From Methylocystis echinoides (GTDB lineage Bacteria; Pseudomonadota; Alphaproteobacteria; Rhizobiales; Beijerinckiaceae), in contig NZ_BSEC01000001.1 of NCBI RefSeq assembly GCF_027923385.1, positions 434,001-498,000 of the forward strand: 64,000 bases of DNA. The letters are read 5' to 3'. Below are positions 12,162 through 54,385 of this stretch, in pieces; the first letter of the stretch is position 1, and every line of letters begins with the position of its first letter. The position numbers and the translations under genes were made by a program. A model generated the notes under the pieces. That model was given only the letters and a program-made list of their open reading frames with translations, was not told where the DNA came from and ran no database searches.

Positions 12162-12587
12162 TTACGACAGATTGGCCGGCGGGCGGATGTTGTTTGCCGG
12201 ATTGGTGTCATGTCTCGAAAGCCGCAGGATCAGGCCCTGGCCGACGAGTGGTTCGAGATCGGCCGCGAGCGCGTCGGCGACGGATTTCGGGTAGACCTCT
12301 TCTCCCGAAACGACGAGCGCGAAAGCCTTGAGATGTTTCGCGCGCTTTTCAGGATCGTCGATCGTCAGCTTCGTCCATTTGTAGAGCGGAAACGCCGCGA
12401 CGCCGGACTTCTCCGCCTCGGCAACATAGTCTTCGAAGGCCTGAAGCTGATTGCGCAAGGCGGCGTCATGTTTTTCGAGAATATGCGCGATCGGCCGCAG
12501 ACGCCCGTCTCCCGGGTCCCTGCGCGCAATTTCCGCATCCGCCGCGTCGAGATAAATTCGGACCTGATGTTGCCATTCACCGCTCAT
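12162..12587 (-). CDS. Hypothetical protein
   Basis: A 141-residue acidic, mostly helical protein that starts MSGEWQHQVRIYLDAADAEI. It contains LEKHDAALRNQLQAFEDYVA, which looks like a coiled helix, and FPLYKWTKLTIDDPEKRAKH. No signal peptide, membrane segment or catalytic motif is visible and I do not recognise the family. AAGGCGCC precedes the ATG. The gene stands alone between the P450 gene and a gene-poor stretch. Confidence 0.65.
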   Translation of the reverse strand: MSGEWQHQVRIYLDAADAEIARRDPGDGRLRPIAHILEKHDAALRNQLQAFEDYVAEAEKSGVAAFPLYKWTKLTIDDPEKRAKHLKAFALVVSGEEVYPKSVADALAADLEPLVGQGLILRLSRHDTNPANNIRPPANLS

Positions 12588-12899
12588 GACCGGGCGCCTT
12601 TTCAGTAATCGACACCAAGGTAGAGCGGCGGCGGCCAGTGGCCAGTCGCGGTCTGGAAGCTGGTTTGGGGAGCGGTCGCGTTCAAAGAAGAGTTTGCGAA
12701 TTTATCGCTTTCTTTGTTTCGCAGTCGCGAAGACGGCGACTGCGTTGCACAAGGAATACTGCTGTAATTAAGCAACAGGCAGGAAAAACACATGTTGTCG
12801 GCGTCGAGCTCTCTTGATTAATCGGCGAGATCGACCGACCCTTATCGTCAAGTAGTATCCATGCCCGCCTTCCTGAGAGGCGGGCCGAGGAGATCGACG
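12588..12899. other. Gene-poor, AT-richer stretch with two hairpins
   Basis: I see no convincing gene here. Two perfect inverted repeats stand out. GCAGTCGC at 12721-12728 pairs with GCGACTGC at 12736-12743. GCCCGCCT at 12863-12870 pairs with AGGCGGGC at 12878-12885, the latter just before the ribosome binding site of the gene at 12900. Neither has a T-run, so they are not classic terminators. The stretch probably holds the promoter and leader of that gene; a small RNA is possible but unsupported. Confidence 0.5.
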
Positions 12900-15239: not shown

Positions 15240-16310
<1,071 letters not shown>

Positions 16311-27891: not shown

Positions 27892-28194
27892 AGCCGAACC
27901 GATGGCGGCTTAAAGTCGCCCGCGGGCTTCAATCCGCCGCATTTTGCAAATTTTACCTGAAGCTGGCCGCGCTGGCGGCGTGGATCGTCACGGCGCTGGA
28001 AATCGGCGTCGTGACAAGGTAAAGAGCTTTGCCGTCGACTCGGCGCGGCTCGCTGCTGCGATCGGGCCGGGACGAGGGCAAGGGTTTTCACGGCGCAGTT
28101 TTTCAGCGGCGTCCGCTCGCGGCTCTCGCGACCAAACAACTCTATGCGAGCCGGAATGGCGCCGGCTAAGCAGACAAGCGAAAGGGACTTCCGA
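27892..28194. other. Divergent intergenic region
   Basis: About 300 bases between the leftward binding-protein gene and the rightward ialB-like gene. I see no gene, RNA or repeat; it should hold both promoters. AT-richer patches lie at 27938-27960 (ATTTTGCAAATTTTACCTG). Confidence 0.5.
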
Positions 28195-28899
28195 ATGTCG
28201 ATCCTCTTCCCGCGGTCCGCCGCGGTCGCGCTGGCGGGCGCTTTCCTGCTCGCGGGCGCTACGGCGCAGGCCCAGCAGGCTCCGGCTGCGGGCGGCGCGC
28301 CCGCCCAGCAGCAGCCGGCCGGCCCGATCACGGCCAATCTGCAGCCGGTCCAGCCCGACTGGACCAAGGTCTGCGGCACCGATCCGGCCTCCAAGAAGGA
28401 AATCTGCTACACGACCCGCGACTTCGGCGCCGCCGCCAAGGAAGGCGACGCGCCGCAGCCGCTGCTCGCGCTCGCCGTCTATGATCCCAAGGCCGACGAC
28501 ACCAAGATCATCCGCCTGCTGCTGCCGCCGGGCCTGATGCTGAAGCCGGGCTTCCGCTTCTCGATCGACAAGGGCGCCGTCGAGACAGGCGCCTTCGAGA
28601 TCTGCTTCCCGAACGGCTGTTTCGCCGAGGCCAAGGTCAAGAAGGCCACGGTCGACGGCATGAAGAAGGCCGAGAAGATGATGGTCGTGGTCAAGAACCA
28701 GGCCAACTCCGAGGTCACCTTCTATCTGCCGCTTGCGAATTTCGGCAAGGCCTTCGACGGCCCGGCGATCGACCCCAAGGTTCTCGAGGAGCAGCAGAAA
28801 AAGCTCCAGGAAGAGCTGCAGAAGAAGGCCGAGGAAGAGCGCAAGAAGCTCCAGGCCAAGGGCGCCGCGCCCGCCGCCGCTCCCGCCGAAAAGAAGTAA
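28195..28899 (+). CDS. IalB-family exported protein
   Basis: A 234-residue protein. Signal peptide to about residue 25 (AGAFLLAGATAQAQQ), then an Ala/Gln/Pro linker and an IalB (invasion-associated locus B) domain with WTKVCGTDPASKKEICYTTR, LPPGLMLKPGFRFSIDKG and FEICFPNGCFAEAKVKK, including the four conserved Cys. The C-terminus is a charged coiled coil (QQKKLQEELQKKAEEERKKL) and an Ala/Pro tail. In free-living alphaproteobacteria the role is unknown; the name comes from Bartonella. A terminator follows 24 bases after the stop. Confidence 0.9.
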   Translation: MSILFPRSAAVALAGAFLLAGATAQAQQAPAAGGAPAQQQPAGPITANLQPVQPDWTKVCGTDPASKKEICYTTRDFGAAAKEGDAPQPLLALAVYDPKADDTKIIRLLLPPGLMLKPGFRFSIDKGAVETGAFEICFPNGCFAEAKVKKATVDGMKKAEKMMVVVKNQANSEVTFYLPLANFGKAFDGPAIDPKVLEEQQKKLQEELQKKAEEERKKLQAKGAAPAAAPAEKK

Positions 28900-30318: not shown

Positions 30319-32586
30319 ATGGCGAAAAGCGGCAATCGCCGGGAACCAAGGTTCGACGACGACGATGACGACGACCTCCGGGCGGAGCCGCGCCCGTCGC
30401 GGTCGCGCGCCAGAAAGCAGCCGCGGCGGCGTTCCGGTTCGCTGATCGGCGGGCTCTTCTACTGGGGTCTGACATTCGCTGTCTGGGGCGTGATCGGCGG
30501 CGGCGCGCTGATGGTCTATTACGGCTCGCAACTGCCGCCCATCGATCAGCTTTCCGTGCCCAAGCGGCCGCCCAACATCGCCATCCTTGGCGTCGATGGC
30601 GCGGCGCTGGCCAATCGCGGCGACACCGGCGGCGCCGCGATCCGCATCGCGGACCTGCCGCCCTATGTGCCCAAGGCCTTCGTCGCCATCGAGGACCGCC
30701 GCTTCTACTCGCACTGGGGCGTCGATCCGCAGGGCATCGGCCGCGCGCTGTTGCGCAATGTCGCGGGGCGCGGCGGCATGCAGGGCGGCTCGACGCTCAC
30801 GCAGCAGCTCGCCAAGAATCTGTTCCTGACCCAGGAGCGCACCATCTCGCGCAAGATTCAGGAGGCGATCCTCGCCGTCTGGCTGGAGCACAAATACAGC
30901 AAGGACCAGATCCTCGAACTTTATCTCAATCGCGTCTATTTCGGCTCCGGCGCCTATGGCGTCGAGGCGGCGACGCAGCGTTACTTCGGCCACGGCGCCA
31001 AGACCGCGACGCTCTCCGAGGCGGCGGTGCTGGCGGGGCTGATGAAGGCGCCGAGCAAGCTCGCGCCGGACCGCAACCCGGACGGCGCGACCGAGCGCGC
31101 GGCGCAGGTCATTACGGCGATGGCGCAGGAAGGCTTCATCTCCGAAAAGATGGCCAAGGGCGCGCTCGCCAATCCCGCCCAGACGCAGAAGGAGACGGGC
31201 GGCGGCTCGATCAATTACGCGGCCGATTATGTGATGGACGTGCTCGACGACACGGTCGGGGCGATCGACGAAGACATCGTCGTGACGACGACCATCGATC
31301 AACGGCTGCAGACCGTCGCCGAAGGCGCGCTGAAGGAAGAGCTCGACAGGAAGGGCGCGAAATTCGGCGTCACCCAGGGCGCCATTGTCTCGCTCGATCC
31401 CACCGGCGCCATTCGCGCGCTTGTCGGCGGGCGCGACTATTCCGAAAGTCAGTTCAACCGCGCCGTTTCGGCGAAGCGCCAGCCGGGTTCGGCCTTCAAG
31501 CCCTTCGTCTATCTCGCCGGCGTCGAGCATGGGCTGACGCCGGAGACGGTGCGCGAGGACGGCCCGCTCAACATCAAGGGCTGGACGCCGGAAAACTACA
31601 GCCATGAATATTTCGGCCCGGTGACGCTCACCAAGGCGCTGGCGCTGTCGCTCAATACGGTGGCGGTGCGCGTCGGCATGGAGGTCGGGCCGAAGACGGT
31701 GGTGAAGACCGCGCATCGGCTCGGCATTCAGTCCGATCTTCAGCCCAACGCCTCCATCGCGCTCGGCACGTCGGAAGTCACGCCGCTCGAGCTCGTCTCG
31801 GCCTATGCGCCCTTCGCCAACGGCGGCTTTGGCGTGCAGCCCTATATCATCACGCGCGTGAAGACCGCCGGCGGCAAGACGCTCTACAGCCGCAAGACGC
31901 CGTCGCCCGCGCGCGCCATCGATCCGCAATATGTCGGCATGATGAACGACATGATGCAGGAGACGCTGCTCACCGGCACGGCGCGCAAGGCGGAGCTTCC
32001 CGGCTGGCCGGCGGCCGGCAAGACCGGCACCAGCCAGGATTTCCGCGACGCCTGGTTCATCGGCTACACGAGCCGGCTCGTCACCGGCGTCTGGCTCGGC
32101 AACGACGACAGTTCGCCAACGAAAAAGGCGTCGGGCGGCAATCTGCCGGTCGAGATCTGGAGCCGCTACATGAGCATCGCCCATAAGGGCGTCGCGGTCG
32201 CCGGCCTGCCGACGAATGGCTGGCGTTCGCAGGGCGGCGTCGACGAGGTCGTTGCGAAGCCGCTCGACGATCTCATCGGTCTCTTCACCGGCGGCTCCGC
32301 GCCGGCTCCCGCGGCTCCTCCCCCTTCGCCCGCTCGCCCGCGCCCGGCGGCGCCCCGCCCGCAACAGGAGCAGGCCATGCCGGCGCAGGACGCGGCGCCG
32401 GACGACCAGACCGCGACCATTCCAAGGCCGCCGGCAGAGCGCCCCCGCGCGGCGCCGCGCATGGAAGATGATTTCCTGCCGCCCGAGGACATCCCCGACG
32501 CGGGCGCGCCGCCGCCGCCGCCGCGTGGACGCCGGCAGGCCGGCCGGGACAAAAGCATCTTCGAGGATCTTTTCGGCGGTCAGTAA
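30319..32586 (+). CDS. Class A penicillin-binding protein (glycosyltransferase-transpeptidase)
   Basis: A 755-residue bifunctional cell-wall enzyme. A basic, Asp-run-containing cytoplasmic tail leads to a membrane anchor at about 40-68. The GT51 glycosyltransferase has EDRRFYSHWG near 124 and QGGSTLTQQLAKNLF. The transpeptidase has SAFK (about 389), SLN (about 444) and KTGTS (about 567). The C-terminal 110 residues are a Pro/Ala-rich tail ending RDKSIFEDLFGGQ. It polymerises and cross-links peptidoglycan. GGGAG precedes the ATG. Pieces of its 3' end are repeated downstream at 33279 and 34066. Confidence 0.93.
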   Translation: MAKSGNRREPRFDDDDDDDLRAEPRPSRSRARKQPRRRSGSLIGGLFYWGLTFAVWGVIGGGALMVYYGSQLPPIDQLSVPKRPPNIAILGVDGAALANRGDTGGAAIRIADLPPYVPKAFVAIEDRRFYSHWGVDPQGIGRALLRNVAGRGGMQGGSTLTQQLAKNLFLTQERTISRKIQEAILAVWLEHKYSKDQILELYLNRVYFGSGAYGVEAATQRYFGHGAKTATLSEAAVLAGLMKAPSKLAPDRNPDGATERAAQVITAMAQEGFISEKMAKGALANPAQTQKETGGGSINYAADYVMDVLDDTVGAIDEDIVVTTTIDQRLQTVAEGALKEELDRKGAKFGVTQGAIVSLDPTGAIRALVGGRDYSESQFNRAVSAKRQPGSAFKPFVYLAGVEHGLTPETVREDGPLNIKGWTPENYSHEYFGPVTLTKALALSLNTVAVRVGMEVGPKTVVKTAHRLGIQSDLQPNASIALGTSEVTPLELVSAYAPFANGGFGVQPYIITRVKTAGGKTLYSRKTPSPARAIDPQYVGMMNDMMQETLLTGTARKAELPGWPAAGKTGTSQDFRDAWFIGYTSRLVTGVWLGNDDSSPTKKASGGNLPVEIWSRYMSIAHKGVAVAGLPTNGWRSQGGVDEVVAKPLDDLIGLFTGGSAPAPAAPPPSPARPRPAAPRPQQEQAMPAQDAAPDDQTATIPRPPAERPRAAPRMEDDFLPPEDIPDAGAPPPPPRGRRQAGRDKSIFEDLFGGQ

Positions 32587-32682
32587 TCGTAAACTGTAAA
32601 GCGGCTGAAAGGCAGAGTTTAAGCTTCCTGTTAGGGTCTCCAGCCGAAACTCCACGGTGCAAGAAGCCTCAGGAGATTGTTC

Positions 32683-33237
32683 GTGCTGGTCAAAATTCTC
32701 GCCGTCGCCGTTGTTTCGGTCCTCGCCTACGCGGCCTTCGACTACGTCTATTTCGGTCCCACCATCATCAGCCTCTCCGGGTCGAGCCTGGTCATCGAAA
32801 ACAATCGCGTCAAGGTTGACTTCGCCCTTGGCGGCGCCTCCTCCTTCGGCGGCGTGCTGATCGCGACCGAAGAGGGGCAGGGCGGCGGCGTCCAGAAGTC
32901 GCTGGATTATTTCGACGAGTCGGGCGCTGCCGAATTCCTGCGCACGCAGCAGCCCGGCCATTGCTCCGCGGAGTTCTATGACGCGCACGCGCGGCACAAG
33001 GAGCTGATCCCGGCGACGCCGGCGGTGCGCGCGGCGCTCGCCGCCCTGGACTTCAGCGATCACGACGACACCGCGAGCTGGCGGCGCTTCACCGTGAACG
33101 GCCGCTGCGTCAGCCACCTGAAATCCCTCACCATCAACGGTCAGCCGGCAGGCGGCCCGTCCGAACTCGACGGCATTTGCATGACCATGGTCGTCACCGA
33201 CATCTCCGTGCAGGACAAGCCGATCCAGGCCTTCTGA
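32683..33237 (+). CDS. Exported protein of unknown family, tandem paralogue A
   Basis: A 184-residue protein with an N-terminal membrane anchor or uncleaved signal (LVKILAVAVVSVLAYAAF), then LSGSSLVIENNRVKVDFALG and conserved QQPGHCSAEFYDAHARH, TASWRRFTVNGRC and MVVTDISVQDKPIQAF. Three Cys recur in all copies (GHC, GRC, and the Cys before TMVV), so disulphides are likely outside the cytoplasm. The GTG at 32683 is chosen because copies B and C begin at the same place and AGGAGA lies seven bases ahead; a TTG at 32677 is the alternative. The most diverged of three tandem copies. Function unknown. Confidence 0.72.
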   Translation: MLVKILAVAVVSVLAYAAFDYVYFGPTIISLSGSSLVIENNRVKVDFALGGASSFGGVLIATEEGQGGGVQKSLDYFDESGAAEFLRTQQPGHCSAEFYDAHARHKELIPATPAVRAALAALDFSDHDDTASWRRFTVNGRCVSHLKSLTINGQPAGGPSELDGICMTMVVTDISVQDKPIQAF

Positions 33238-33278
33238 AAAACTCAAACGCCGCTCGATCCGCAGCGCGTCCGTGGCCG

Positions 33279-33306
33279 CCGGTGAAGAGATTTTCGGCGG
33301 TCTGTG
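33279..33306 (+). pseudogene. Remnant of the penicillin-binding protein 3' end, copy 1
   Basis: GTGAAGAGATTTTCGGCGG followed by TCTGTGATTGTAAACC parallels the end of the penicillin-binding protein gene (GAGGATCTTTTCGGCGGTC, a stop, then TCGTAAACTG) and encodes EEIFGGL in the matching frame. It sits before paralogue B at the same relative place that the intact gene end has before paralogue A. Confidence 0.6.
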
Positions 33307-33394
33307 ATTGTAAACCTTGCCGCTCTTTAGTCCGCCCTTCACGCACCCGGTCCATATTCGCCAGCACTGCAGTAGTGCTCAGGGAGACCCCGTC

Positions 33395-33958
33395 ATGCTG
33401 ACCAAGATAATCGGCGCCGTCGCAATTTCGATGATCGCCTATAGCGCCTATACGAAAATGGATGGCGGCCCCGCGAAGACGAGTCTCTCCGGCTCGGCCC
33501 TCGTCGTGGAAAACCAGCGATACAAATTTGACTATGCCCTTGCGGGTCCGTCTTCACTCGGCGGCGTGCTGATCGCCACGGGTCGCCAGAGGGGCGTCTC
33601 CCAGGGGGGCGTCGAGATGGCGCTTCATTATTTCGATGAGTCGAGCGCGGCGGAATTCGTGCGCACGCAGCAGCCCGGTCATTGCTCCGCCGAGTTCTAC
33701 AACGAGCACGCCCTGCACAAGCTGCTGATACCGGCGACGCCGGCGGTGCGCGAGATGCTTGCCGACCTGGACTTCAGCGACCATGAGGACACCGCGAGCT
33801 GGCGGCGCTTCACGCTGAACGGTCGCTGCGTCAATTACGCGAAATCCATCACCATTGACGATCACCCGGCGGCCGGCCCGTCCAACCTCTTCGATAATTG
33901 CACGACCATGGTCGTCACCGACATTTCCGTGCAGGACAAGCCGATCCAGGGCCTCTGA
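33395..33958 (+). CDS. Exported protein of unknown family, tandem paralogue B
   Basis: 187 residues, beginning MLTKIIGAVAISMIAYSAYT (anchor or signal) and sharing with copy A the blocks QQPGHCSAEFYNEHALHKLL, TASWRRFTLNGRC and TTMVVTDISVQDKPI. The first 118 or so codons are almost base-for-base identical to copy C; after that the two drift apart, with the B tail closer to copy A. AGGGAG before the ATG. The mosaic pattern suggests recent duplication or gene conversion. Probably periplasmic or membrane-tethered; no function known. Confidence 0.75.
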   Translation: MLTKIIGAVAISMIAYSAYTKMDGGPAKTSLSGSALVVENQRYKFDYALAGPSSLGGVLIATGRQRGVSQGGVEMALHYFDESSAAEFVRTQQPGHCSAEFYNEHALHKLLIPATPAVREMLADLDFSDHEDTASWRRFTLNGRCVNYAKSITIDDHPAAGPSNLFDNCTTMVVTDISVQDKPIQGL

Positions 33959-33997
33959 AGACGTCGAACGCCGTTCGATCTGCAGCGCGTCGCTGGC

Positions 33998-34110
33998 CGC
34001 CCGTGAAGAGATTTTCGGCGGTCAGCGCGACGCGCCAGTCACGCCGGCGCGGGCGATGGCAGGCGCGACGCGACGCAAACATCTTCGGGCAACTGTTCGG
34101 CGGTCAGTGA
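33998..34110 (+). pseudogene. Remnants of the penicillin-binding protein 3' end, copy 2
   Basis: Two adjacent pieces. GTGAAGAGATTTTCGGCGG at 34002-34020 repeats copy 1. Then 34066-34110 encodes RRDANIFGQLFGGQ and a stop, against GRDKSIFEDLFGGQ and a stop in the intact gene. The sequence after the stop (TTGTAAACCTTG) also matches the other remnant. No start or remaining enzyme part is present. Confidence 0.7.
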
Positions 34111-34208
34111 TTGTAAACCTTGCGAGGCGGAATAGCCGCGCTTTAGTCCGTCCTTCACGCGCCCGGCCCATATTCGCCAGCACTCCGGTAGTGCTCAGGG
34201 AAACCTCC

Positions 34209-34781
34209 ATGCTGACCAAGATAATCGGCGCCGTCGCAATTTCGATGATCGCCTATAGCGCCTATACGAAAATGGATGGCGGCCCCGCGAAGACGAGTCT
34301 CTCCGGCTCGGCCCTCGTCGTGGAAAACCAGCGATACAAATTTGACTATGCCCTTGCGGGTCCGTCTTCACTCGGCGGCGTCCTGATCGCCACGGGTCGC
34401 CAGAGGGGCGTCTCCCAGGGGGGCGTCGAGATGGCGCTTCATTATTTCGATGAGTCGAGCGCGGCGGAATTCGTGCGCACGCAGCAGCCCGGTCATTGCT
34501 CCGCCGAGTTCTACAACGCGCACGCCCTGCACAAGCTGCTGATCCCCGCCACGCCAGCCGCGAAAGAGAGCCTCGCCAAACTGAGTTTCAGCGATCACGC
34601 CGACACGTCAAGTTGGCGGCGCTTCACCCTGAACGGACGCTGCATCAGTCACGCGAACGCCATGACCATCGAAGGCGAGCCCGTGACCGCGTCGACCAAC
34701 TTGTTCGAGAATTGCACGACCATCGCGGTGACCGGCATCGACGTGCAGGACAAGCCCATCGAGGCCTTCATCCGCAATTGA
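34209..34781 (+). CDS. Exported protein of unknown family, tandem paralogue C
   Basis: 190 residues with the same anchor (MLTKIIGAVAISMIAYSAYT), the same QQPGHCSAEFYNAHALHKLL and a diverged end (TSSWRRFTLNGRC, TTIAVTGIDVQDKPIEAF). DNA identity with copy B over the first about 350 bases is close to complete, including the leader from CATATTCGCCAGCACT to the ATG. Identity falls off sharply near the codons after PATPA. The nSTAND gene follows 212 bases downstream on the same strand. Confidence 0.75.
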   Translation: MLTKIIGAVAISMIAYSAYTKMDGGPAKTSLSGSALVVENQRYKFDYALAGPSSLGGVLIATGRQRGVSQGGVEMALHYFDESSAAEFVRTQQPGHCSAEFYNAHALHKLLIPATPAAKESLAKLSFSDHADTSSWRRFTLNGRCISHANAMTIEGEPVTASTNLFENCTTIAVTGIDVQDKPIEAFIRN

Positions 34782-34993
34782 GTTCCGCCCGGAGGCGTTG
34801 ACGACACGACCCGCCCGCCGAGCGCGGGTCGTGCGCAATCGGATGCGTCATGCGCGCCTGCAAAAGCCCGTCGCCGAAAGCAAAGCTGAGGGCTGACCCT
34901 TAACCTTGATGAAAACCGTCCTAATCACGCCGCCTCTTCGCCATTGTTGTGTTTTCAATTGCGCGTGCCGCACGCGTCCAGACGAGGCACGAG

Positions 34994-37567
34994 ATGGACT
35001 TGCTGTTTCCTACAGGCCCGGGCGATCAGCCCCGCGTCGATGCGCTCTCCTTCGACTGGCCGCCCGCGCAGGCGCGCGATCGCAGTTGCTATCGAGGGCT
35101 CACGCCGCTCGACGCGCATGACGCAGGCGTTTTCTTCGGGCGCGACGCTGCGCTGGGCGAAGCGCTCGACGCGCTGCGCGGCGTAAAGGCGCGTGGCGGC
35201 GTTTTCATCCTGCTGGGGGGCGAAGGCGCCGGGAAGACGTCATTTCTCTGCGCCGGCCTTGCGCCCCGGCTTGCGCGCGAGGGGCTGGCGCCGCTGATCC
35301 TGCGGCGTGCGGAAGACGGCGGCCTCGACGCGCTCGCCTCTGCGATCGCCGCCCGCAGCGCGGCGCCGGCGCCGCAGATCAGGGCGGCAATCGACAGTGG
35401 CGCGGATGCGCTGCGGCCGCTGCTGAAGACGCTCGCGGAAAAAGACGGCGCGCCGCTCGTCATCGCCATCGATCAGGCGGAAGATCTGTTCTCCGACAAG
35501 CATCGCGCGGACAGCAGGAAACTGCTGTCGCTCCTCAACGCCCTCGTGGACGGCGGCGATCCGGCCGTGGTCGTGCTCTACGCCATTCGCCCGAGCGCTT
35601 TGGAGAAGCTTCAGCGCGACGCCGCCTCGACGCAGACGGGCGCGCGGCTCTATGCGCTGCCGGCGCTTTCGCGCGCGGATCTGCGCGCCATCATCGAAGG
35701 TCCGCTGCAAAGACTGCCGTCCGGTGGGCTTCGGATCGAGCCCGATCTTGTCGACGCGATGCTCGACGACGCCGAGGCCGCCGCCGCGCCGCCGCTGCCG
35801 CTGCTCGCCTTCGCGCTCGACCAGCTTCTGCGCCTGCGTCGCCCGGACAGCGCGCTTTGCCTGAGCGATTACGAGAGGATCGGGCGGCTTTCGGGATGTC
35901 TCGACGCCGCGGGCGACCGCGTGCTGGGCGTCGGCGCCGAGGGGCGGCCGCCGGATTACGAGGTGCGTCTCAGTCTGCTCAAGCGCGGACTCATTCCCTG
36001 GCTCGCAGGCTGCGACGCGCAGGACGGCGCGGCGCGGCGGCGCGTCGCGACGGAGAAGGAAATCCCGGCCACCTCGCTTCCGCTCATCGAGCGCCTCGCG
36101 CAGGAAGGCCTTGTCCGCCGCCTGACCGAGACGGCCGAACCGTCCTTCGAGCTCGTGCACGACGCGGTGTTCACTTACTGGAAACTGCTCCGCAACCTGC
36201 TCGCCGACGCGCCAAGGCCGGGCCCCGCGATGGAGCGCCTCAAGCAGGCGTCGAGCGATTGGGACAGGAATGCGCGCGCGCCCGAACGCGTCACGCATGC
36301 GGGTAGCCTGCTCGAACAGGCGGAACAGCTCTACGCCCAGCCGGACGCGCTGGCGCTTCTGGATTCGACCGACCGCGCCTATCTCGTCGCCTGCCGCGAA
36401 CGCGAAAACAGGGAGAAGGACAAAACGCCCCTCGTCCCCAGGGTCGAGGTGGAGCCGCGCCGCCGCGAGCTGGTCGCCGAAAGGCGCGAGCGCACGGCGC
36501 GCGGCGGGGGCCTCGCTTGGGTCGGCATGGTCGCGGCTTTGGCGCTTGCGGGCTTCGCCGGCTGGAAATGGCAGATGCTCGAGCAGCAACAGCGCGCGGG
36601 TGACGCGCGCCTCGCGCGGGCGGAGAACGCCATTGAAGCCGCCATCCTCTCTGGCGACAAGCTCCTTGGCGAGCTTGCGCAGAATCTTGCGACAGCCAAT
36701 GGCGCGGAGGCGCGTTCGATGCGCGACGCCGTCACGAAGCTCGCCGATCAGCAGGAACGCCTTGCCGATGAACCGGCCGTCGGCGCGCGGCTGCGCCGGA
36801 CGCAATCGGTCGGGCTCAATGTCGTCGCGGGCGCCCGGCTGATGACGGGGGATCATTCGCGCGCGCTAGCCGCCGCGCAGAAATCCGTGCTGCTCATGCA
36901 GGCGCTGACCACCTCCGACGCGAGCAATGTTGGCTGGCGGCGCGATCTCTCGGTGAGTTACGAGACGCTCGGCGACGCGCAGCTTGCGGCGAGGGACACG
37001 GACGGCGCCATTGCCTCCTATCGCTCCGATCTGACGATTGCGAAGACCCTCGCCTCGGCCGCCCCGGATAATGCGCAATGGCGCTGGGACATGTCGGTTT
37101 CCCAGGAAAAGCTTGGCGACGCGCAGCTCGCCAGGGGCGAGCTGCAAAAGGCGCTGGAGTCCTATGGCGAGTCGCGCGCGACCCGCGAAGCCCTGCTCGC
37201 GGCCGAGCCAAAGAACCGCAAGTGGGAGCGCGCGCTGGCGCGCAGCTATGAACGCATCGGCGCGGCGCTTGCGCAAAAGCACGATACCGCCGGCGCCACG
37301 GCCGCCTTCGAGGGCGCGCTGGAGATTTACCAGAGAATGGCGCGCGCCGATCCCGCCGACGCGCAGACGCTTTTGTCCTCCATCGTGCCGCGCTGGCGCC
37401 TTGCCGGACTCGACCGGCCGCGCGCCCGCGCGCTGCTCGGTCCGGCGCTCGAAATATTGGAGAAGCTCGCGGCGGAGGGGCGGCTCGCCGAGGACAAGCG
37501 CGAGTGGCTCGACCGCGTGAAATCGGAGCTGGCCGCGCTCGACCCGCCCTCGACCCCGACGCAATGA
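34994..37567 (+). CDS. nSTAND-type NTPase with membrane segment and helical repeats
   Basis: An 857-residue protein. Residues 33-55 (YRGLTPLDAHDAGVFFGRD) are the entry signature of the nSTAND1 family of signal-transducing NTPases; Walker A is GGEGAGKTS (75-83) and the Walker B region LVIAIDQAEDLF (154-165). A helical winged region ends in FELVHDAVFTYWKLL. One membrane helix lies at 505-525 (GLAWVGMVAALALAGFAGWK). The C-terminal part (about 600-790) has TPR-like repeats with LGDAQLA-type turns. There is no N-terminal protease, CHAT or TIR effector as in many relatives. STAND proteins usually switch on when a ligand binds the repeats. GAGGCACGAG precedes the ATG. It lies between the triplicated exported genes and an RsbW-STAS pair. 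Confidence 0.85.
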   Translation: MDLLFPTGPGDQPRVDALSFDWPPAQARDRSCYRGLTPLDAHDAGVFFGRDAALGEALDALRGVKARGGVFILLGGEGAGKTSFLCAGLAPRLAREGLAPLILRRAEDGGLDALASAIAARSAAPAPQIRAAIDSGADALRPLLKTLAEKDGAPLVIAIDQAEDLFSDKHRADSRKLLSLLNALVDGGDPAVVVLYAIRPSALEKLQRDAASTQTGARLYALPALSRADLRAIIEGPLQRLPSGGLRIEPDLVDAMLDDAEAAAAPPLPLLAFALDQLLRLRRPDSALCLSDYERIGRLSGCLDAAGDRVLGVGAEGRPPDYEVRLSLLKRGLIPWLAGCDAQDGAARRRVATEKEIPATSLPLIERLAQEGLVRRLTETAEPSFELVHDAVFTYWKLLRNLLADAPRPGPAMERLKQASSDWDRNARAPERVTHAGSLLEQAEQLYAQPDALALLDSTDRAYLVACRERENREKDKTPLVPRVEVEPRRRELVAERRERTARGGGLAWVGMVAALALAGFAGWKWQMLEQQQRAGDARLARAENAIEAAILSGDKLLGELAQNLATANGAEARSMRDAVTKLADQQERLADEPAVGARLRRTQSVGLNVVAGARLMTGDHSRALAAAQKSVLLMQALTTSDASNVGWRRDLSVSYETLGDAQLAARDTDGAIASYRSDLTIAKTLASAAPDNAQWRWDMSVSQEKLGDAQLARGELQKALESYGESRATREALLAAEPKNRKWERALARSYERIGAALAQKHDTAGATAAFEGALEIYQRMARADPADAQTLLSSIVPRWRLAGLDRPRARALLGPALEILEKLAAEGRLAEDKREWLDRVKSELAALDPPSTPTQ

Positions 37568-37607
37568 GCGCGCGCATCCGCGACGGCGCTTCGCGTCGCG
37601 GCGGGAA

Positions 37608-38060
37608 TCACGGCGGCCTGTAAAAAGCCGCGACGACCTTGTTGCCGAATTCCGTCTGCGCATAGTCGAGACGGCTGGCGAAACGTTTGACCAGACCCAC
37701 GCCGAGGCCGCCCGGCTGAAGCTGGTCGAGCGGCTGATCCGCGGTTTTTGCCGGCGCGCTGACGATGTCGAAATAGGCGCCATTGTCCTCGACGGTCAGC
37801 GCGACCCGGTCGGCCTGCGCCGCGAGCGTCAGACGTAAGTGCAGGCGGTCGCCGTTGCGGGCGCGCCCGGCGTTGTGGAGCACGCTATTGGTGATCAGCT
37901 CTTCCGCGCAGAGCCGCAGCGCATAGAACTGGTCTTCAGCAAGATCGAGCCCCTGCGCGATCTCCTCGATCCAGGCGAGCGAGAGGCGAATCCCTTCCCG
38001 CTCGCCGTCGAAGGTCCGGCGCCACTCCCCTCCGGAAGGGTCGGGGCCCGCAATCGTCAC
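37608..38060 (-). CDS. RsbW-like anti-sigma serine kinase
   Basis: A 150-residue single-domain HATPase_c_2 protein. The N box is LRLCAEELITNSVLHN with the metal-binding Asn, followed by VEDNGAYFDI (G1) and the glycine-rich lid LQPGGLGVGLVKRFA. In partner-switch systems such kinases bind a sigma factor or other target and phosphorylate a STAS antagonist. Its ATG overlaps the stop of the STAS gene upstream (ATGA), so the pair is made together. It is convergent with the nSTAND gene, 40 bases apart. The target is not evident. Confidence 0.9.
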   Translation of the reverse strand: MTIAGPDPSGGEWRRTFDGEREGIRLSLAWIEEIAQGLDLAEDQFYALRLCAEELITNSVLHNAGRARNGDRLHLRLTLAAQADRVALTVEDNGAYFDIVSAPAKTADQPLDQLQPGGLGVGLVKRFASRLDYAQTEFGNKVVAAFYRPP

Positions 38061-38395
38061 AGGCCGAAAACCAGATCGACTTCCGCGATGTCGCGGATGA
38101 TCGGAATGAGCGTGTCGATATTGCTCTCGCGAAGGACTTTCTCCACGTTGCGCTGGGGCGCCAGGACGACAAGCTTGCCGCCGATGCCCGCCGCCATTTT
38201 CGCGCCGGAGACCAATGTGCGGATTCCAAGAGAGGCGAGATAGTCCACGCCCGCTAGATCGACGACGATCCGCCGCTTGCCGGCCACGGCGTCCTTGAAT
38301 TCCGCGTCGATCGCCAGCGCGCCGTCGAGGTCGAGACGGCCGTCGAGCAGGATTTTGGAAATCCCGTGGTCGAGCTCGGCAATTTGAAGTTTCAT
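38057..38395 (-). CDS. STAS-domain anti-sigma factor antagonist
   Basis: A 112-residue STAS protein: LDGRLDLDGALAIDAEFKD, RRIVVDLAGVDYLASLGIRT and GGKLVVLAPQRNVEKVL. The Ser of DYLASLGIRT is at the position phosphorylated in SpoIIAA/RsbV. It should bind and neutralise the adjacent RsbW-like kinase when unphosphorylated. AGAGGGAC supports the ATG at 38395 over an in-frame upstream start. No PP2C phosphatase, the third usual partner, is in the window. Confidence 0.9.
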   Translation of the reverse strand: MKLQIAELDHGISKILLDGRLDLDGALAIDAEFKDAVAGKRRIVVDLAGVDYLASLGIRTLVSGAKMAAGIGGKLVVLAPQRNVEKVLRESNIDTLIPIIRDIAEVDLVFGL

Positions 38396-38577
38396 GAAGT
38401 CCCTCTCCCGCAATGGCCGCCGCGTCGCAAGCGTGGCTGTAAGCTGTTTATGCGCCTGCAACAAATCGCCCCGATGTGTCACTGCGGTGACAGTGCGTCG
38501 CCGCTAGGGAAACCCGAGCGTCGCGGCGGGGTCAAGGAGGCTTTTGGCGCGGGAGGAGGGCCGGGGGCCGGCGTTGG

Positions 38578-39597
38578 TCACGCCGGCGCGAACTGCTCGC
38601 AGAAGACGCGCCCCGCCCCCCCGGCGGCCGCGCGGGTGACGGCGTCGATCAGCGCCGGCGGACCGCAGACATAAATGTCGGGTTGCTCCGTCGTCCCGGC
38701 GAGCGCCTGCGCCATCGCCTCGGCCGGGGTCCCGGTAAAGCCGCGCCAGTCGCTTTCCGGCTTCCAGACGCAGAGCGTGACGGAGAGTTGCGGCAGCGCC
38801 GCCTGAAGCGCGTCGATGGCGTCGCGGGCGAAGACTTCCTCTACGCGGTTGACGCCGAAGAACAGCCGGCAGGCGCGCGCATCCGCGAATTCCGCCATCT
38901 GCCGCAGCATGGAGAGCGCCGGCGCGAGACCCGTGCCGCCGCAAACGAACCAGCGCGGCGCCAGGCTGGCGTCGTCGAGGGTGAATTGTCCCTTCGGGCC
39001 ATGCACGATGAGTTCGTCGCCGGGCGCGGCGCGTTCCCTGAGATAGGTCGAGAACGCGCCCTGCGGCTGCAGGCGGACGAGGAACTCGAGCGCGCCGTCC
39101 CAATTGGGCGTCGAGGCGATGGAATAGGCGCGTTTCACGCCTGCGCCGGGGAGTTCGAGCTCGGCGAATTGCCCGGCGAGAAACTGCGCGGCGCGGCCAT
39201 GCTCGGGATCGTCCTGATACTGCAACTGTAGCCGCATCGCCGAAGCGCCCGCTGGCTCCAGCGCGACGAGGGTCGCGCGCCGCACGGGCTCGGGCGCGAA
39301 GGCCACGGCCTGCTGATCATAGGGCGCGTGCAGCGTGACATCGCTTTGCGCATGGGCGCAGCAGAGCAGCGTTTCGCCCGCCGCCCGCGCGCTCTCGCTC
39401 AGGGCGGCTTCGCTGTAGGCGTCGAGCGTGATGTCGCCCGAAACGGCGGTGACGCGGCAGACGCCGCAGCCGCCCTGGCGGCAGGACGACGGCGGGTAGA
39501 TATTGGCGCGCTCGGCGGCGGCGAGCAGCGTTTCCTCAGGCTCCGCGTCGAAGGCGATCGTGGCGCCGTCGCGTGTGAGCAGATTGACCTTGTACAT
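38578..39597 (-). CDS. hcr: NADH oxidoreductase for hybrid cluster protein (Hcr-like)
   Basis: A 339-residue flavoprotein reductase. A plant-type [2Fe-2S] domain has CRQGGCGVC and a fourth Cys in LLCCAH. The FAD part has RAYSIAST and the NAD part CGGTGLAPALSML, with FVVC-like end CEQFAPA. The layout is also that of monooxygenase reductases such as MmoC or BenC. It directly follows hcp (65-base gap), so passing electrons from NADH to Hcp is the better reading. GGGAG precedes the ATG. Confidence 0.85.
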   Translation of the reverse strand: MYKVNLLTRDGATIAFDAEPEETLLAAAERANIYPPSSCRQGGCGVCRVTAVSGDITLDAYSEAALSESARAAGETLLCCAHAQSDVTLHAPYDQQAVAFAPEPVRRATLVALEPAGASAMRLQLQYQDDPEHGRAAQFLAGQFAELELPGAGVKRAYSIASTPNWDGALEFLVRLQPQGAFSTYLRERAAPGDELIVHGPKGQFTLDDASLAPRWFVCGGTGLAPALSMLRQMAEFADARACRLFFGVNRVEEVFARDAIDALQAALPQLSVTLCVWKPESDWRGFTGTPAEAMAQALAGTTEQPDIYVCGPPALIDAVTRAAAGGAGRVFCEQFAPA

Positions 39598-39662
39598 TTG
39601 ACTTGCTCCCGGGATGGCGCGGCGAAGCGCCGGAGCGCTTCGCCTCTTGCAGACGCCAGGCC

Positions 39663-41327
39663 TTACGCGGCGCGCGCGAGCGCGGCGTCGATATCGGCTT
39701 GCGCCTCGCCCACCGGCAGCACGCCGAATTTCCCGACCAGCACATCGACCAGCGCCGGCGTGAGGAAGGCGGGCAGCGTCGGGCCGAGGCGCACATTGCG
39801 CACGCCCAGCGCCAGCAGGGTCAGCAGCACGGCGGCGGCCTTCTGCTCGAACCAGGAGACGATGAGCGACAGCGGCAGCTCATTGACGCCGACGCCAAAG
39901 GCCTCCGACAGTTTCGTGGCGACGACGAGCGCCGAATAGGCGTCGTTGCACTGGCCCATGTCGAGCAGGCGCGGCAGGCCGCCGACCGTGCCGAAGTCAT
40001 GTTTGTTGAACCTGTATTTGCCGCAGCCCAGCGTCAGGATCACCGTGTCGTCCGGCGTCGCGTCGGCGAAGTCGGAATAGTAATTGCGACCCGGCGCGGC
40101 GCCGTCGCAGCCGCCGATCATGAAGAAATGGCGGATGGCGCCGCTCTTCACCGCGTCGATCACCTTGTCGGCGACGCCAAGCACCGCCGCGCGGCCGAAG
40201 CCGACAGTGATGCGCTTCTCTTCGGCGTCCGCCGTAAAGCCCGGCAGCGCCAGCGCCGCCTGCACGACCTGCGAGAAATCTTCATCGGCGATGTGGCGCA
40301 CGCCCGCCCAGCCGACCGGGCCGGCGGTGAAGATGCGCCCGCGATAACGCGGCTGCGGCTCGATCAGGCAGTTGGAGGTCATCACGATCGGGCCGGGGAA
40401 TTCCGCGAATTCCTTCTGCTGATCCTGCCAGGCGCCGCCGTAATTGCCGGCGAGATGCGGATAGGCCTTGAGCTTCGGATAGGAATGCGCCGGCAGCAGT
40501 TCGCCATGCGTATAGACGTTGACGCCCGTGCCCTTCGTCGCTTCGAGAATGGCGTGGAGATCCTTCATGTCGTGGCCCGAGACGAGGATCGCCTTGCCCT
40601 TGATCGGCGTGACCCGCACGTTCGTCGGCTCCGGCATGCCGAAAGCGCCGGTGTTCGCCGCGTCGAGCGCCTCCATGGCGGCGAAATTGGCGTGACCGAG
40701 CGCCAGCGCCTCGTCGAGCAGCGGGCCAAGTTCTTTGGGATTGCGCGCCAGCAGATCGAGCGCATGTTCGACGGCGGCGTAAATGGCGTCGCGCTCCTCG
40801 CCGAGCACGCGCGCATGATGCGCATAGGCGCAGACGCCCTTCAGCCCGTAAAGCACCAGCGCGCGCAGGCCGACGACGTCGTCGCCGAGGATCGCGGCGT
40901 CCTTGCGGACGGCCGCCTCGCCGGCCTGAGCGAGAAGTCCGTTCATGTCGGCGGCGGGGACGAAAGCCGCGGGGCCGTGCAGCGTCTCGGGAAGTTTGGC
41001 GGCGTCCCGCGCGGCCTTTTCGTAAAGCGCCCGGGCGCGATCGCGAATCTGCGCCGCCTCTTGGATGAGCTGCACGAATTTGGCGGCGTTGAAATTGACG
41101 TTGGTCAGGGTGGTGAAGAAGGCGAAGAGGATGAAGCGGTCGGCTTCCGCGTCGGTCGCGCTGAGCGCGCGGGCGCGGGTGAGATATTGGCCGATTCCCT
41201 CGCACACATGCAGGAGAATGTCCTGAAGATCGGCGGTTGCGGCGTCCTTCCCGCACATGCCTTTGGCGCTCGCGCAGCCCGCGCCTTCCTCAGAGCGGTA
41301 GGTTTGCTCGCATTGATAACAGAACAT
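39663..41327 (-). CDS. hcp: Hybrid cluster protein (hydroxylamine/NO reductase)
   Basis: A 554-residue Hcp. The N-terminal motif [18 protein letters not shown], then ASAKGMC, fits C-x2-C-x11-C-x6-C, the class II ([2Fe-2S]-containing) form as in E. coli. Hybrid-cluster ligands lie in the C-terminal half ([28 protein letters not shown]). It reduces nitric oxide or hydroxylamine and is linked to S-nitrosylation control. The ATG at 41327 has GGGAG upstream; an in-frame start further out adds an arginine-rich tail. Flanked by hcr and an NsrR-type regulator, so probably induced by NO. Confidence 0.95.
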
Positions 41328-41395
41328 GATGGCTCCCTGCCTGGCGCTGTGCCGTGAAAATCGACGCTCGCGCCGGGAGGGGCGCCGATATCGGT

Positions 41396-41407
41396 ATCTA
41401 GAATGCG
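41396..41407. promoter_or_regulatory. Candidate NsrR half-site before hcp
   Basis: ATCTAGAATGCG lies about 70 bases before the hcp ATG. A close copy, ATCCAGAATACG, lies before nsrR itself at 41946. The shared ATC(T/C)AGAAT(G/A)CG core next to AT-rich sequence is suggestive of a common operator. It does not match the textbook NsrR palindrome well, so the link to NsrR is inference. Confidence 0.35.
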
Positions 41408-41485
41408 TAATTAACCGGGAGAGAGTCAAGCCTGGACGCGCCCGGGGGCAGGCGCGTCAGGCGGGCGTTTCGGGATTTGGCGTGC

Positions 41486-41917
41486 TTATTCCGCGAGATC
41501 GAGGGCGGGCGTCGCGCCCGGTTTCTCCAAGCAATCCGCAAGGGTGAAGCGATCCAGCTCGCGCAGGAAGCCCAGTTGCGCGCGACCCAGCATGCCTTTC
41601 AGCCGGCATCGCGGCAAAAGCGCGCAGTTGCTGCCCTGCGGACTGAAACATTCCACTAATGGCTGGTCATCGAGCCGGCGCACGACCTCGCCGATGCGAA
41701 TGTCGCGCGGATCGCGGGCAAGTCGCACGCCGCCCTGCGCGCCGCGCAGGCTGGTCAGATATCCTGCCGCCGTCAGCTCCTGCAGCACCTTCGCCATATG
41801 ATGGCGCGAGACCTGAAAATGATCGGCGATGTCCGACGCCGACAGCGTCTCGCCTTCCCGGCTGGCGAGAAGGATGAGGGCCCGCAGGCCGAAATCGGTA
41901 AAATTGGTCAGCCGCAT
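41486..41917 (-). CDS. nsrR: NsrR-type Rrf2-family nitric oxide sensor
   Basis: A 143-residue Rrf2 regulator. The winged helix-turn-helix has LSASDIADHFQVSRHHMAKV and LTSLRGAQGGVRLAR. Cys90, Cys98 and Cys104 (ECFSPQGSNCALLPRCRL) have the exact spacing that holds the NsrR iron-sulphur cluster; nitric oxide destroys the cluster and lifts repression. It is upstream of hcp on the same strand (158-base gap) with its own promoter region. AAGGAG precedes the ATG. Confidence 0.92.
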   Translation of the reverse strand: MRLTNFTDFGLRALILLASREGETLSASDIADHFQVSRHHMAKVLQELTAAGYLTSLRGAQGGVRLARDPRDIRIGEVVRRLDDQPLVECFSPQGSNCALLPRCRLKGMLGRAQLGFLRELDRFTLADCLEKPGATPALDLAE

Positions 41918-41945
41918 GACAAGGAGTTTATCACCTTAAATCAGA

Positions 41946-41957
41946 ATCCAGAATACG
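41946..41957. promoter_or_regulatory. Candidate NsrR half-site before nsrR
   Basis: ATCCAGAATACG lies 29-40 bases before the nsrR ATG and matches the site before hcp at ten of twelve positions. It may mark autoregulation. See the caution at 41396. Confidence 0.35.
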
Positions 41958-42007
41958 GCGTTACGCCGCAACCGGGCAGCCGCGGCCTTGCAGGCGATCC
42001 CGCCGGT

Positions 42008-42436
42008 TCAGTCCGAGGTGATCATGATCTGCGGCATCTCATCCGTCTCGGCGCGGTCGAGCCCGTCCTCCTCGGCCAGTTCGACGCCCGTGATGCAGAC
42101 GTCCTCGCCGTCGATCACGACGGCGATCTTCTCCAGCGACGCGCCGGCGCAGGGCCCGTCGTAGCATTTGCCGGTGGCGATCTCGAACAGGGCGCCGTGC
42201 TTGCCGCAGACGATCGCGCGATGCCCCTGGTCGAGAAAATGCCCGGGCTGGAAGTCGATCCGCGCACCCTGATGGGGGCAGCGGTTGACATAGGCGTAGT
42301 AGTGCTTCCCCTGCCGGACCACCATGATGGGGAAGGGCACGGTCTTGTCGCCCTCGCGACGGGCGAGCACAAATCCCACGGCGCCGCGCTTGGCGACGTC
42401 GTTGATGTGGCAGACGGCGAAAACTTCCTGATCCAT
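42008..42436 (-). CDS. Rieske [2Fe-2S] ferredoxin-like protein
   Basis: A 142-residue Rieske protein. The two cluster motifs are CPHQGARI and CGKHGALFE, which give the 2-Cys, 2-His ligands; the middle region AVVIDGEDVCITGVE and an acidic tail follow. No signal peptide, so cytoplasmic. Such proteins serve as ferredoxins or as nitrite reductase small-subunit-like electron carriers. GGGAGG precedes the ATG. It lies 90 bases upstream of nsrR, on the same strand, and may belong to the same stress unit. Confidence 0.88.
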   Translation of the reverse strand: MDQEVFAVCHINDVAKRGAVGFVLARREGDKTVPFPIMVVRQGKHYYAYVNRCPHQGARIDFQPGHFLDQGHRAIVCGKHGALFEIATGKCYDGPCAGASLEKIAVVIDGEDVCITGVELAEEDGLDRAETDEMPQIMITSD

Positions 42437-42535
42437 CGGGCGCCTCCCGCGCGTAGCTGTCGCAAGCGGGAAGCAATTTCCTTGCCCTTTCAGGAAGGCG
42501 GGGCCCGGCCGCGCCCCGAAGGACGCGCCCGCGCT

Positions 42536-53231: not shown

Positions 53232-53555
53232 ATGAACAGGTTTGCGGCGGCGGTTTTCTTTCTGGTCACGGGTTTCGCGGGCGCGGCGGCGGCGGAGACC
53301 TACACGCTCACCATCAAGGACCATAAATTCGATCCCGCCGAGCTGAAGATCCCGGCCGAAAAGGCGGCGACGCTCGTCGTCAAAAATCTGGACGCCACGC
53401 CGGAGGAATTCGAGTCGAAGCCGCTGCGCATCGAAAAGGTCGTGCCGGCGAATAGCGAGGCGACCTTCCAGCTTCGGGCGCTGAAACCCGGTCGCTACAA
53501 ATTCTTCGGCGAGTTCCACGAGGACAGCGCAAAGGGCGAGGTCATCGTCGAGTAA
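53232..53555 (+). CDS. Periplasmic cupredoxin-like iron uptake protein
   Basis: A 107-residue exported protein. Signal peptide to about residue 21 (AAVFFLVTGFAGAAAAETY), then one cupredoxin domain: YTLTIKDHKFDPAELKIPAE, VVKNLDATPEEFESKPLRIE and LKPGRYKFFGEFHEDSAKGE. This matches the EfeO cupredoxin domain alone, without the M75 peptidase-like part. It probably binds or oxidises ferrous iron for the permease whose ATG overlaps its stop codon (TAATG). Confidence 0.85.
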   Translation: MNRFAAAVFFLVTGFAGAAAAETYTLTIKDHKFDPAELKIPAEKAATLVVKNLDATPEEFESKPLRIEKVVPANSEATFQLRALKPGRYKFFGEFHEDSAKGEVIVE

Positions 53556-54385
53556 TGCTGGGCGCGCTGATCATCGTCTTCCGCGAGGCCATCGAGGCGG
53601 GCCTCATCATCGGTATTGTCGCCGCGGTGACGCGCGGCGTGGAGGGGTCGCGCGCGCATATCGCGGGCGGCGTCGCGGCCGGCGTGTTTGGCGCGCTGAT
53701 CGTGGCGGCCTTCGCCGAGCAGCTCTCCAAAGCCTTCGCGGGCGCCGGTCAGGAGCTCTTCAACGCGGCGGTGCTGATGATCGCCGTCGTGATGCTTGCG
53801 TGGCACAATATCTGGATGGCCCGCCACGGACGTGAACTGGCCCAGGAGCTCTCCGACGTCGGCCGCGCGGTGGCGCGGGGCGACCGCACGCTGTTCGCGC
53901 TCGCGACGGTCGTCGGCCTCGCCGTGCTGCGCGAGGGCTCGGAAGTCGCGCTGTTTCTCTATGGCGTGCTGGCGTCCGGCGAGTCGGCGGGCAGCGTGCT
54001 CGTCGGCGGGCTCGCCGGCCTCGCGCTCGGCGCCGCGACGAGCCTTGCGACCTTCTACGGCCTCGTCTCCATTCCGCCGAAACGCCTTTTCGCGGTGACG
54101 ACCTGGCTCATCACCTTTCTTGCGGCGGGGCTTGCGGCGCAGGCCGTCGCCTTTCTGCAGCAGGCGGGGACGATCACCGCGCTCACCGACACGCTTTGGG
54201 ACACGTCCTGGATTCTCTCCGACAAGAGCATTCCCGGCCGCGTGCTGCATACGCTGATCGGCTATGCCGACCAGCCGTCGCAGATGCAGGTCGTCGCTTA
54301 CATCGCGACCATCGCCGCAATCGTCGCCGCGACGAAACTCACTTCCATGACCGCGCATGCGCCGGCGCAGGCGCCGGCGGAATAG
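53555..54385 (+). CDS. FTR1-family iron permease
   Basis: A 276-residue permease with seven predicted membrane helices. The iron-ligand motifs are REAIEAGLIIGI near residue 10 and REGSEVALFLYG near 130, both of the R-E-x-x-E type that passes iron in FTR1/EfeU. It should import iron together with the cupredoxin protein, forming a minimal two-gene system without EfeB peroxidase. Start overlaps the upstream stop. Its last 47 bases overlap the 3' end of the convergent DUF1259 gene. Confidence 0.9.
   Translation: MLGALIIVFREAIEAGLIIGIVAAVTRGVEGSRAHIAGGVAAGVFGALIVAAFAEQLSKAFAGAGQELFNAAVLMIAVVMLAWHNIWMARHGRELAQELSDVGRAVARGDRTLFALATVVGLAVLREGSEVALFLYGVLASGESAGSVLVGGLAGLALGAATSLATFYGLVSIPPKRLFAVTTWLITFLAAGLAAQAVAFLQQAGTITALTDTLWDTSWILSDKSIPGRVLHTLIGYADQPSQMQVVAYIATIAAIVAATKLTSMTAHAPAQAPAE

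Follow-up and report, generated by a model that had tools for sequence, protein, structure and literature searches.

Recombination at short direct repeats, which duplicates genes in tandem, and gene conversion between tandem paralogues are both well-known general processes. Here, we analyzed a locus in which traces of both can be read, situated in a stretch of 64,000 nucleotides of the genome of Methylocystis echinoides (contig NZ_BSEC01000001.1, positions 434,001–498,000; hereafter, the window), a species of a genus whose members are methane oxidisers. At this locus, three tandem copies of one gene (A, B, and C) follow a class A penicillin-binding protein (PBP) gene. We consider it highly probable that two tandem duplications, which carried the end of the PBP gene with them, and a subsequent gene conversion from C to B built this array from a rare accessory gene. 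The array resembles known cases of duplication at short repeats in its head-to-tail copies, the piece of the upstream gene copied into the junctions, and the short repeats found at the joints; it is the same in kind, and what is unusual is that the scar is still legible at about 75% identity. It likewise resembles known conversions between paralogues in its sharp change within a gene from near identity to 27% difference, at synonymous sites too, and is again the same in kind, the conversion here being confined to the 5′ 335 nt. The processes are thus textbook ones and the locus is an otherwise ordinary example of bacterial gene-family growth, with an unusually clear record: the first breakpoint, the resulting repeat, the second joint, and the later conversion with its likely donor and recipient are all legible within 2.2 kb. 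A literature search, covering titles and abstract openings only, found no report on this locus.

The PBP gene end copied between the gene copies

A, B, and C are three intact open frames in the same orientation, arranged in tandem downstream of the PBP gene (Table 1), and at an E value of 0.001 they were the sole copies of their family in the 5.3-Mb genome; at E 1, a single match of 37 residues was added (E 0.21). At the protein level, A and C were 66% and 84% identical to B, respectively. The PBP gene was present in 35 of the 39 genomes of the genus, including that of M. echinoides itself (E 1e-150), and the end of its product is recognizable: of the 20 relatives read, 16 carry the motif I/V-F-x-x-LFGG there and 19 carry LFGG.

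The spacer between B and C carries two pieces resembling this end (positions 34005–34025 and 34047–34110), whose repeats lie 82 bp apart. The second piece, the main fossil, comprises 20 codons and a stop, and it matched the PBP gene at 48 of 64 nt; as a peptide, RGRWQARRDANIFGQLFGGQ plus stop agreed with RGRRQAGRDKSIFEDLFGGQ plus stop at 14 of 20 residues. When a 101-nt query of the PBP end was run against the genome, the best non-self match was this fossil (34042–34118, E 1.1e-8), and the next (E 4.6e-4) lay on another contig and aligned to the upstream part of the query. The DNA score of the B–C spacer was 65, compared with a maximum of 40 among 2000 shuffled sequences, and none of 2000 shuffles reached its score with a profile of the PBP tails of the 20 relatives. 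When both strands of the window were scanned with this profile, the source ranked first (37.5), the B–C fossil second (28.65), and the next match scored 25.7. A 23-mer across the stop (TTCGGCGGTCNGTRATYGTAAAC, up to three mismatches), a degenerate pattern derived from the three copies themselves, occurred at three places in the genome, all of them in the array, and the reversed-pattern control gave none; the plain PBP version of this 23-mer, with three mismatches, hit the same three places only in the window and nothing in 100 shuffles. A 19-nt PBP stretch (up to three mismatches) was found at four places in the window, compared with 0.06 expected, namely at the source, at 33284, at 34005, and at 15273, the last of which is outside the array. 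A chance resemblance of the tails to the PBP end was rejected on the basis of this uniqueness in the genome, the E value of 1.1e-8, and the shuffle tests. Aligned without gaps from the stop, the fossil shared 33 of 42 nt with the tail of the resident PBP and no more than 29 of 42 with any of the 20 relatives; it also has the GGQ end of the resident PBP, which occurred in none of the 20 relatives. This nearness to the resident tail and the GGQ end common only to the two suggest that the copy was most likely made within this lineage.

The A–B and B–C spacers align over their length, except that 82 bp of the latter have no counterpart in the former. The ends of this gap fall inside the two TTCGGCGGTC repeats, and the A–B spacer therefore looks as if it contains a joint, EEIFGGL probably being the left half of one repeat fused to the right half of the other. 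A joint of this kind could have come from either of two candidate events at a 12-bp repeat, unequal exchange or a deletion. Farther downstream, the A–B spacer lacks another 13 bp, and it has two extra bases 5′ of the start codon. As DNA, the A–B spacer scored 35, a value reached by 1 of 2000 shuffles. Against its reading as a PBP remnant stand the E value of 0.07 for the piece at 33291–33315 with the 101-nt query, ranking below four matches elsewhere, and, at the protein level, its score with the relatives' tail profile, which was reached by 21 of 2000 shuffles; its profile score of 14.3 also lay outside the 14 best window matches listed. By itself, the A–B piece is a weak PBP remnant, especially at the protein level.

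An earlier, sequence-only reading of this DNA had proposed three tandem copies after the PBP gene, each of the last two preceded by a remnant of the 3′ end of that gene, and had concluded that the duplicated unit consisted of the gene end, the gap, and the gene. The three copies were confirmed, and the remnants are real, strongly so in the B–C spacer and more weakly for the A–B spacer taken alone. EEIFGGL, which had been placed at 33279, holds as a remnant, although it starts at 33284 and is better read as a joint. The remnant that had been noted at 34066 stands, with 20 codons and a stop, and the shorter piece 82 bp upstream of it had been missed. Contrary to the alternative of chance matches, the tails matched the PBP gene far better than chance, strongly so in the B–C spacer, and the proposed composition of the unit is supported by this result.

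Table 1. Features of the array and its surroundings (positions in the window)
Feature	Position	Strand	Description	Evidence
Class A PBP gene	30319–32586	+	Transglycosylase and transpeptidase; source of the copied 3′ end	Pfam PF00912 E 1.1e-63, PF00905 E 8e-37
Source stretch	32523–32594	+	Final PBP codons, stop, and 8 nt (RGRRQAGRDKSIFEDLFGGQ plus stop)	
Rearranged 9.4-kb stretch	32587–42010		Separates PBP and Rieske genes; A, B, C, nSTAND1 gene, others	Gene order in relatives
Copy A	32683–33237	+	184 aa; GTG start (alternative TTG at 32677)	
A–B spacer joint (probable)	33284–33315	+	GAAGAGATTTTCGGCGGTC/TGTGATTGTAAAC (EEIFGGL)	Alignment to B–C spacer
Copy B	33395–33958	+	187 aa; mosaic gene	
Converted tract of B	33395–33729	+		335 nt, 2 mismatches to C
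First PBP-tail-like piece of B–C spacer	34005–34025	+	GAAGAGATTTTCGGCGGTCAG	Repeat map
Main PBP-tail fossil	34047–34118	+	RGRWQARRDANIFGQLFGGQ plus stop and 8 nt	72 nt, 76% identical to source
Copy C	34209–34781	+	190 aa; likely donor of converted tract	

The mosaic structure of copy B

The longest tract over which B and C differ by no more than two mismatches measured 335 nt, whereas the largest in 20,000 permutations was 132. Beyond it the agreement ends abruptly, and 61 of the final 227 nt of B differ from C. In the non-coding leader, the two copies were 90% identical over 71 nt, so that the 5′ edge of the tract is less sharp. The synonymous divergence (dS) between B and C was 0.01 in codons 1–111 and 0.70 afterwards, and because synonymous sites are thus identical too, purifying selection was ruled out as the cause of the B–C identity. 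The corresponding values for the 5′ and 3′ parts were 0.61 and 0.24 for A and B, and 0.64 and 0.53 for A and C. The site patterns show the same switch: in the first 334 nt, B agreed with C against A at 92 sites, with one site each for A with B and A with C, and in the last 227 nt, A agreed with B at 44 sites, A with C at 14, and B with C at 18, with all three different at three. From these counts we take A and B to be the younger pair; the two also have the same 3′ flank. The ratio of nonsynonymous to synonymous divergence (dN/dS) in the 3′ part was 0.36–0.65, a range pointing to weak constraint there; each of the three frames is open.

The direction of the transfer is indicated by two metagenomic proteins. 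The C-terminal half of P0002 was 97% identical to that of B, and its N-terminal half reached an identity of 73% with B, 75% with A, and 72% with C, whereas P0003 was 97% identical to C in both halves. Because P0002 combines a B-type C-terminal half with an N-terminal half of its own, and P0003 is C-like throughout, the 5′ half of B must have been replaced, with C as the likely donor. The unconverted B-type allele is known as a protein only (P0002), from contigs of at most 1779 bases, and the contigs of P0003 reach 38,313 bases.

The sequence-only reading had described near identity of B and C over the leader and about 350 bases, followed by abrupt divergence, as a sign of recent duplication or gene conversion. 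The near identity holds from the start codon onwards and not for the leader, and gene conversion is borne out by the extent of the tract and the contrast in dS.

By eye, the leaders of B and C (33363–33379 and 34179–34195) contain an inverted repeat, AGCACT-N5-AGTGCT, just 5′ of the ribosome-binding site; its arms are conserved and its loop differs between the two.

Distribution of the gene and history of the array

In the history that we favor, a rare accessory gene lay directly 3′ of the class A PBP gene. The first of two tandem duplications, of a unit extending from inside the last PBP codons through the gap and the gene, would have produced the ancestor of A and B, and C, with the PBP-tail fossil between them. 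The fossil and the similar 21-bp piece on its upstream side both contain TTCGGCGGTCAG, at a distance of 82 bp. A second, younger duplication would have given A and B, and recombination between the short repeats, either as unequal exchange or as a later deletion of one repeat with the intervening sequence, would have left the short A–B joint. Finally, gene conversion from C replaced the first 335 nt of B. The copies, the main fossil, the geometry of the joint, and the converted tract are shown by the sequence itself, and the direction of conversion by two metagenomic proteins; we infer the order of the duplications from the divergence of the copies, and the role of the short repeats from the spacers. 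Three observations weigh against this history. The 3′ flank of C could not be clearly matched with the flanks of A and B, leaving the downstream end of the duplicated unit undefined; one- or two-copy versions of this locus did not turn up in any genome, and divergence is thus the only guide to the order of duplication; and P0002 could be an assembly chimera, although none of the other members seen comes near it in the N-terminal half.

A search at E 1 did not find the gene in any of the other 38 genomes sampled from the genus, four of which gave partial matches of 27–47 residues (best E 0.0139); the sample comprised 39 genomes including that of M. echinoides, 30 of them with a completeness of 90% or more and a contamination of 5% or less. 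Related genomes with three copies and unrelated spacers, which would have spoken against the sequence-only reading, were thus not seen among these 38. In overlapping samples, the gene was likewise found in none of 100 relatives (E 0.001), 396 other genomes of the order (E 0.01), 397 genomes of the phylum (E 0.001), and 384 of the class (E 0.001), where at most eight candidates were scored per genome in the order, phylum, class, and family searches among the matches listed. One of 396 other genomes of the family (G1163), from a different genus, carries a divergent member (L157:7200-7781). This member is present as a single copy, in contrast to the triplication here, and it adjoins frames that by eye resemble a glycine-cleavage cluster; no PBP-like frame was seen by eye among its listed neighbors. 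An IalB-like frame lies three genes away from it (by eye), and the window also has an IalB gene (28144–28899), which is possibly a coincidence. Protein searches among 5.8 billion proteins, two of the three of which scored the best 8000 candidates, gave at least 23 clusters (P0001–P0023), including that of the window. None of the 23 has a precomputed Pfam domain. Scans of GTDB r220 contigs and IMG/VR with back-translated patterns, which can miss members and did not list that of G1163, gave no relatives, and neither did a tblastn search of PLSDB plasmids. The gene family is rare and accessory.

The array might instead have been imported ready-made from a relative, together with the flanking PBP end, by homologous recombination in the PBP gene, in which case the tails would be donor PBP ends. 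The absence of the gene from the 38 other genomes of the genus and the presence of both B-type and C-type proteins in metagenomes fit such an import. So does the gene order in 6 of the 20 relatives read, in which the Rieske gene (42011–42535 in the window) directly follows the PBP gene, 7–118 nt on, without the 9.4-kb stretch that separates the two here. In nine others, the next match behind the PBP gene is to the frame at 53456–54382 of the window, with reversed gene order through the approximately 11 kb read; four had no match to a window frame in the stretch read, and one had a single match, to the frame at 12165–12701. However, the fossil has its nearest match in the resident PBP tail, and the GGQ end that the two have in common is absent from the 20 relatives read. 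In base composition, the stretch resembles its surroundings, being slightly lower over B and C. ARAGORN detected no tRNA anywhere in the window, and the eight scanned genes of the stretch include no integrase. We therefore regard import as unlikely. The 9.4-kb stretch is rearranged and may or may not be a single imported island.

It is similarly improbable that the tail segment was retained before each copy as a promoter or other signal rather than as a passive scar. A 23-nt segment is indeed kept at all three places, 79–90 nt 5′ of each start codon, but a scan limited to the sigma-70 consensus found no site there, the distance to the start codon varies with the 13-bp indel, and recombination at the repeats would likewise keep the copies alike. 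We give very little credence to a very recent duplication of the 5′ part of C, without conversion into an existing B, which would account for 335 nt with two mismatches, since the 3′ half of B is nearer to A, its 3′ flank aligns with that of A, and P0002, a B-type protein with its own N-terminal half, exists, all of which indicates that B predates the transfer.

The encoded protein and its neighbors

In an alignment of 24 rows, the majority motifs of the family were GVLTMTG-Q-GVSEGGA, PFFNAHA, ILIPATP, WRRF-L-GYC, and NMFDNC. Three cysteines (97, 145, and 169 in B) were kept in 25 of 26 rows, P0021 being without the first. In A, B, and C, residues 1–17 form a hydrophobic segment (hydropathy over 17 residues of 2.49 in A and 1.61 in B and C), and nothing comparable follows, the values after residue 50 being at most 1.28. 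A lipobox-like pattern was present in the first 40 residues in 5 of the 23 clusters; P0005 and P0009 were set aside because of its position, and in P0014, P0016, and P0019, the cysteine closes the N-terminal hydrophobic stretch, where a lipobox is expected. The hydrophobic segment and the lipobox-like cysteines of these three homologues suggest that the proteins are likely exported, and we infer that a single N-terminal helix probably anchors them in the inner membrane, the domain that contains the three conserved cysteines lying in the periplasm. The best structure model had a mean pLDDT of 85.7 and consisted of an N-terminal helix and a mixed alpha–beta domain with long strands; it was built from 14 sequences, and the other four of the five models reached 40–53, so a poor model is possible. 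The helix that it places at residues 2–23 agrees with the proposed tether, but its low confidence (block means of 61, 67, and 78) tells against it.

Library searches recognized no family for A, B, or C: Pfam gave no match at E 1 for the three proteins and a best E value of 0.14 in another search, and the best E values were 0.027 in NCBIfam and 0.011 in PHROGs. Among PDB sequences, the best match had E 0.12 with an 11-row profile, and there was none at E 1 with 24 rows. Foldseek found no match at E 0.001 in either PDB or BFVD. Its best PDB match by E value (0.07) had a probability of 0.12, and the weak leads were the OB-fold single-strand-binding proteins PriB and mtSSB in PDB (probability 0.66 and 0.60, E 0.5–0.8) and an uncharacterized podovirus protein in BFVD (E 0.055, probability 0.96, TM-score 0.31 by query). 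The family is unclassified in the libraries searched and has no recognized fold. Membership in a defense system is not supported, because PADLOC at 0.01 gave no match for A, B, C, or the neighboring nSTAND1, HATPase, and STAS genes. The N-terminus of P0018, a metagenomic member of the family, resembles a fragment of an FKBP domain (PF00254, E 0.01, under the cut-off), and this protein could be an assembly chimera.

Given its likely location and the PBP neighbor, a role in the cell envelope is our guess, and the array is a natural place to seek the role of the family, perhaps in the envelope. It seems unlikely that the array acts as a cassette that actively diversifies a new family of periplasmic proteins with an undescribed fold. 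If it were, the repeats left by the first duplication would promote changes in copy number, and conversion would swap the anchor and N-terminal half with the C-terminal halves staying different, giving mosaic envelope variants.

Besides A, B, and C, the 9.4-kb stretch contains genes for an nSTAND1–TPR protein, HATPase and STAS proteins, a flavin/2Fe-2S reductase, and a hybrid-cluster protein. The nSTAND1 NTPase gene (34994–37567) lies beside the array, and its product has TPRs and, by eye, a transmembrane-like stretch; relatives of this protein were present in 5 of the 38 other genomes of the genus. The HATPase/STAS pair adjoins it on the opposite strand. The hybrid-cluster protein was found in 21 of these 38 genomes, though it was absent from the stretches read behind the PBP gene. 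Within the genus, the genes that lie 3′ of the class A PBP gene vary from group to group (L121–L140), marking a rearrangement-prone place. The region at 38578–42010 resembles a gene set for nitrosative or nitric oxide stress: it holds the genes for the hybrid-cluster protein and the flavin/2Fe-2S reductase, together with a frame near 41490–41920 that by eye is a regulator of the Rrf2 type. Contig 4 of the same genome carries another hybrid-cluster gene (83%).

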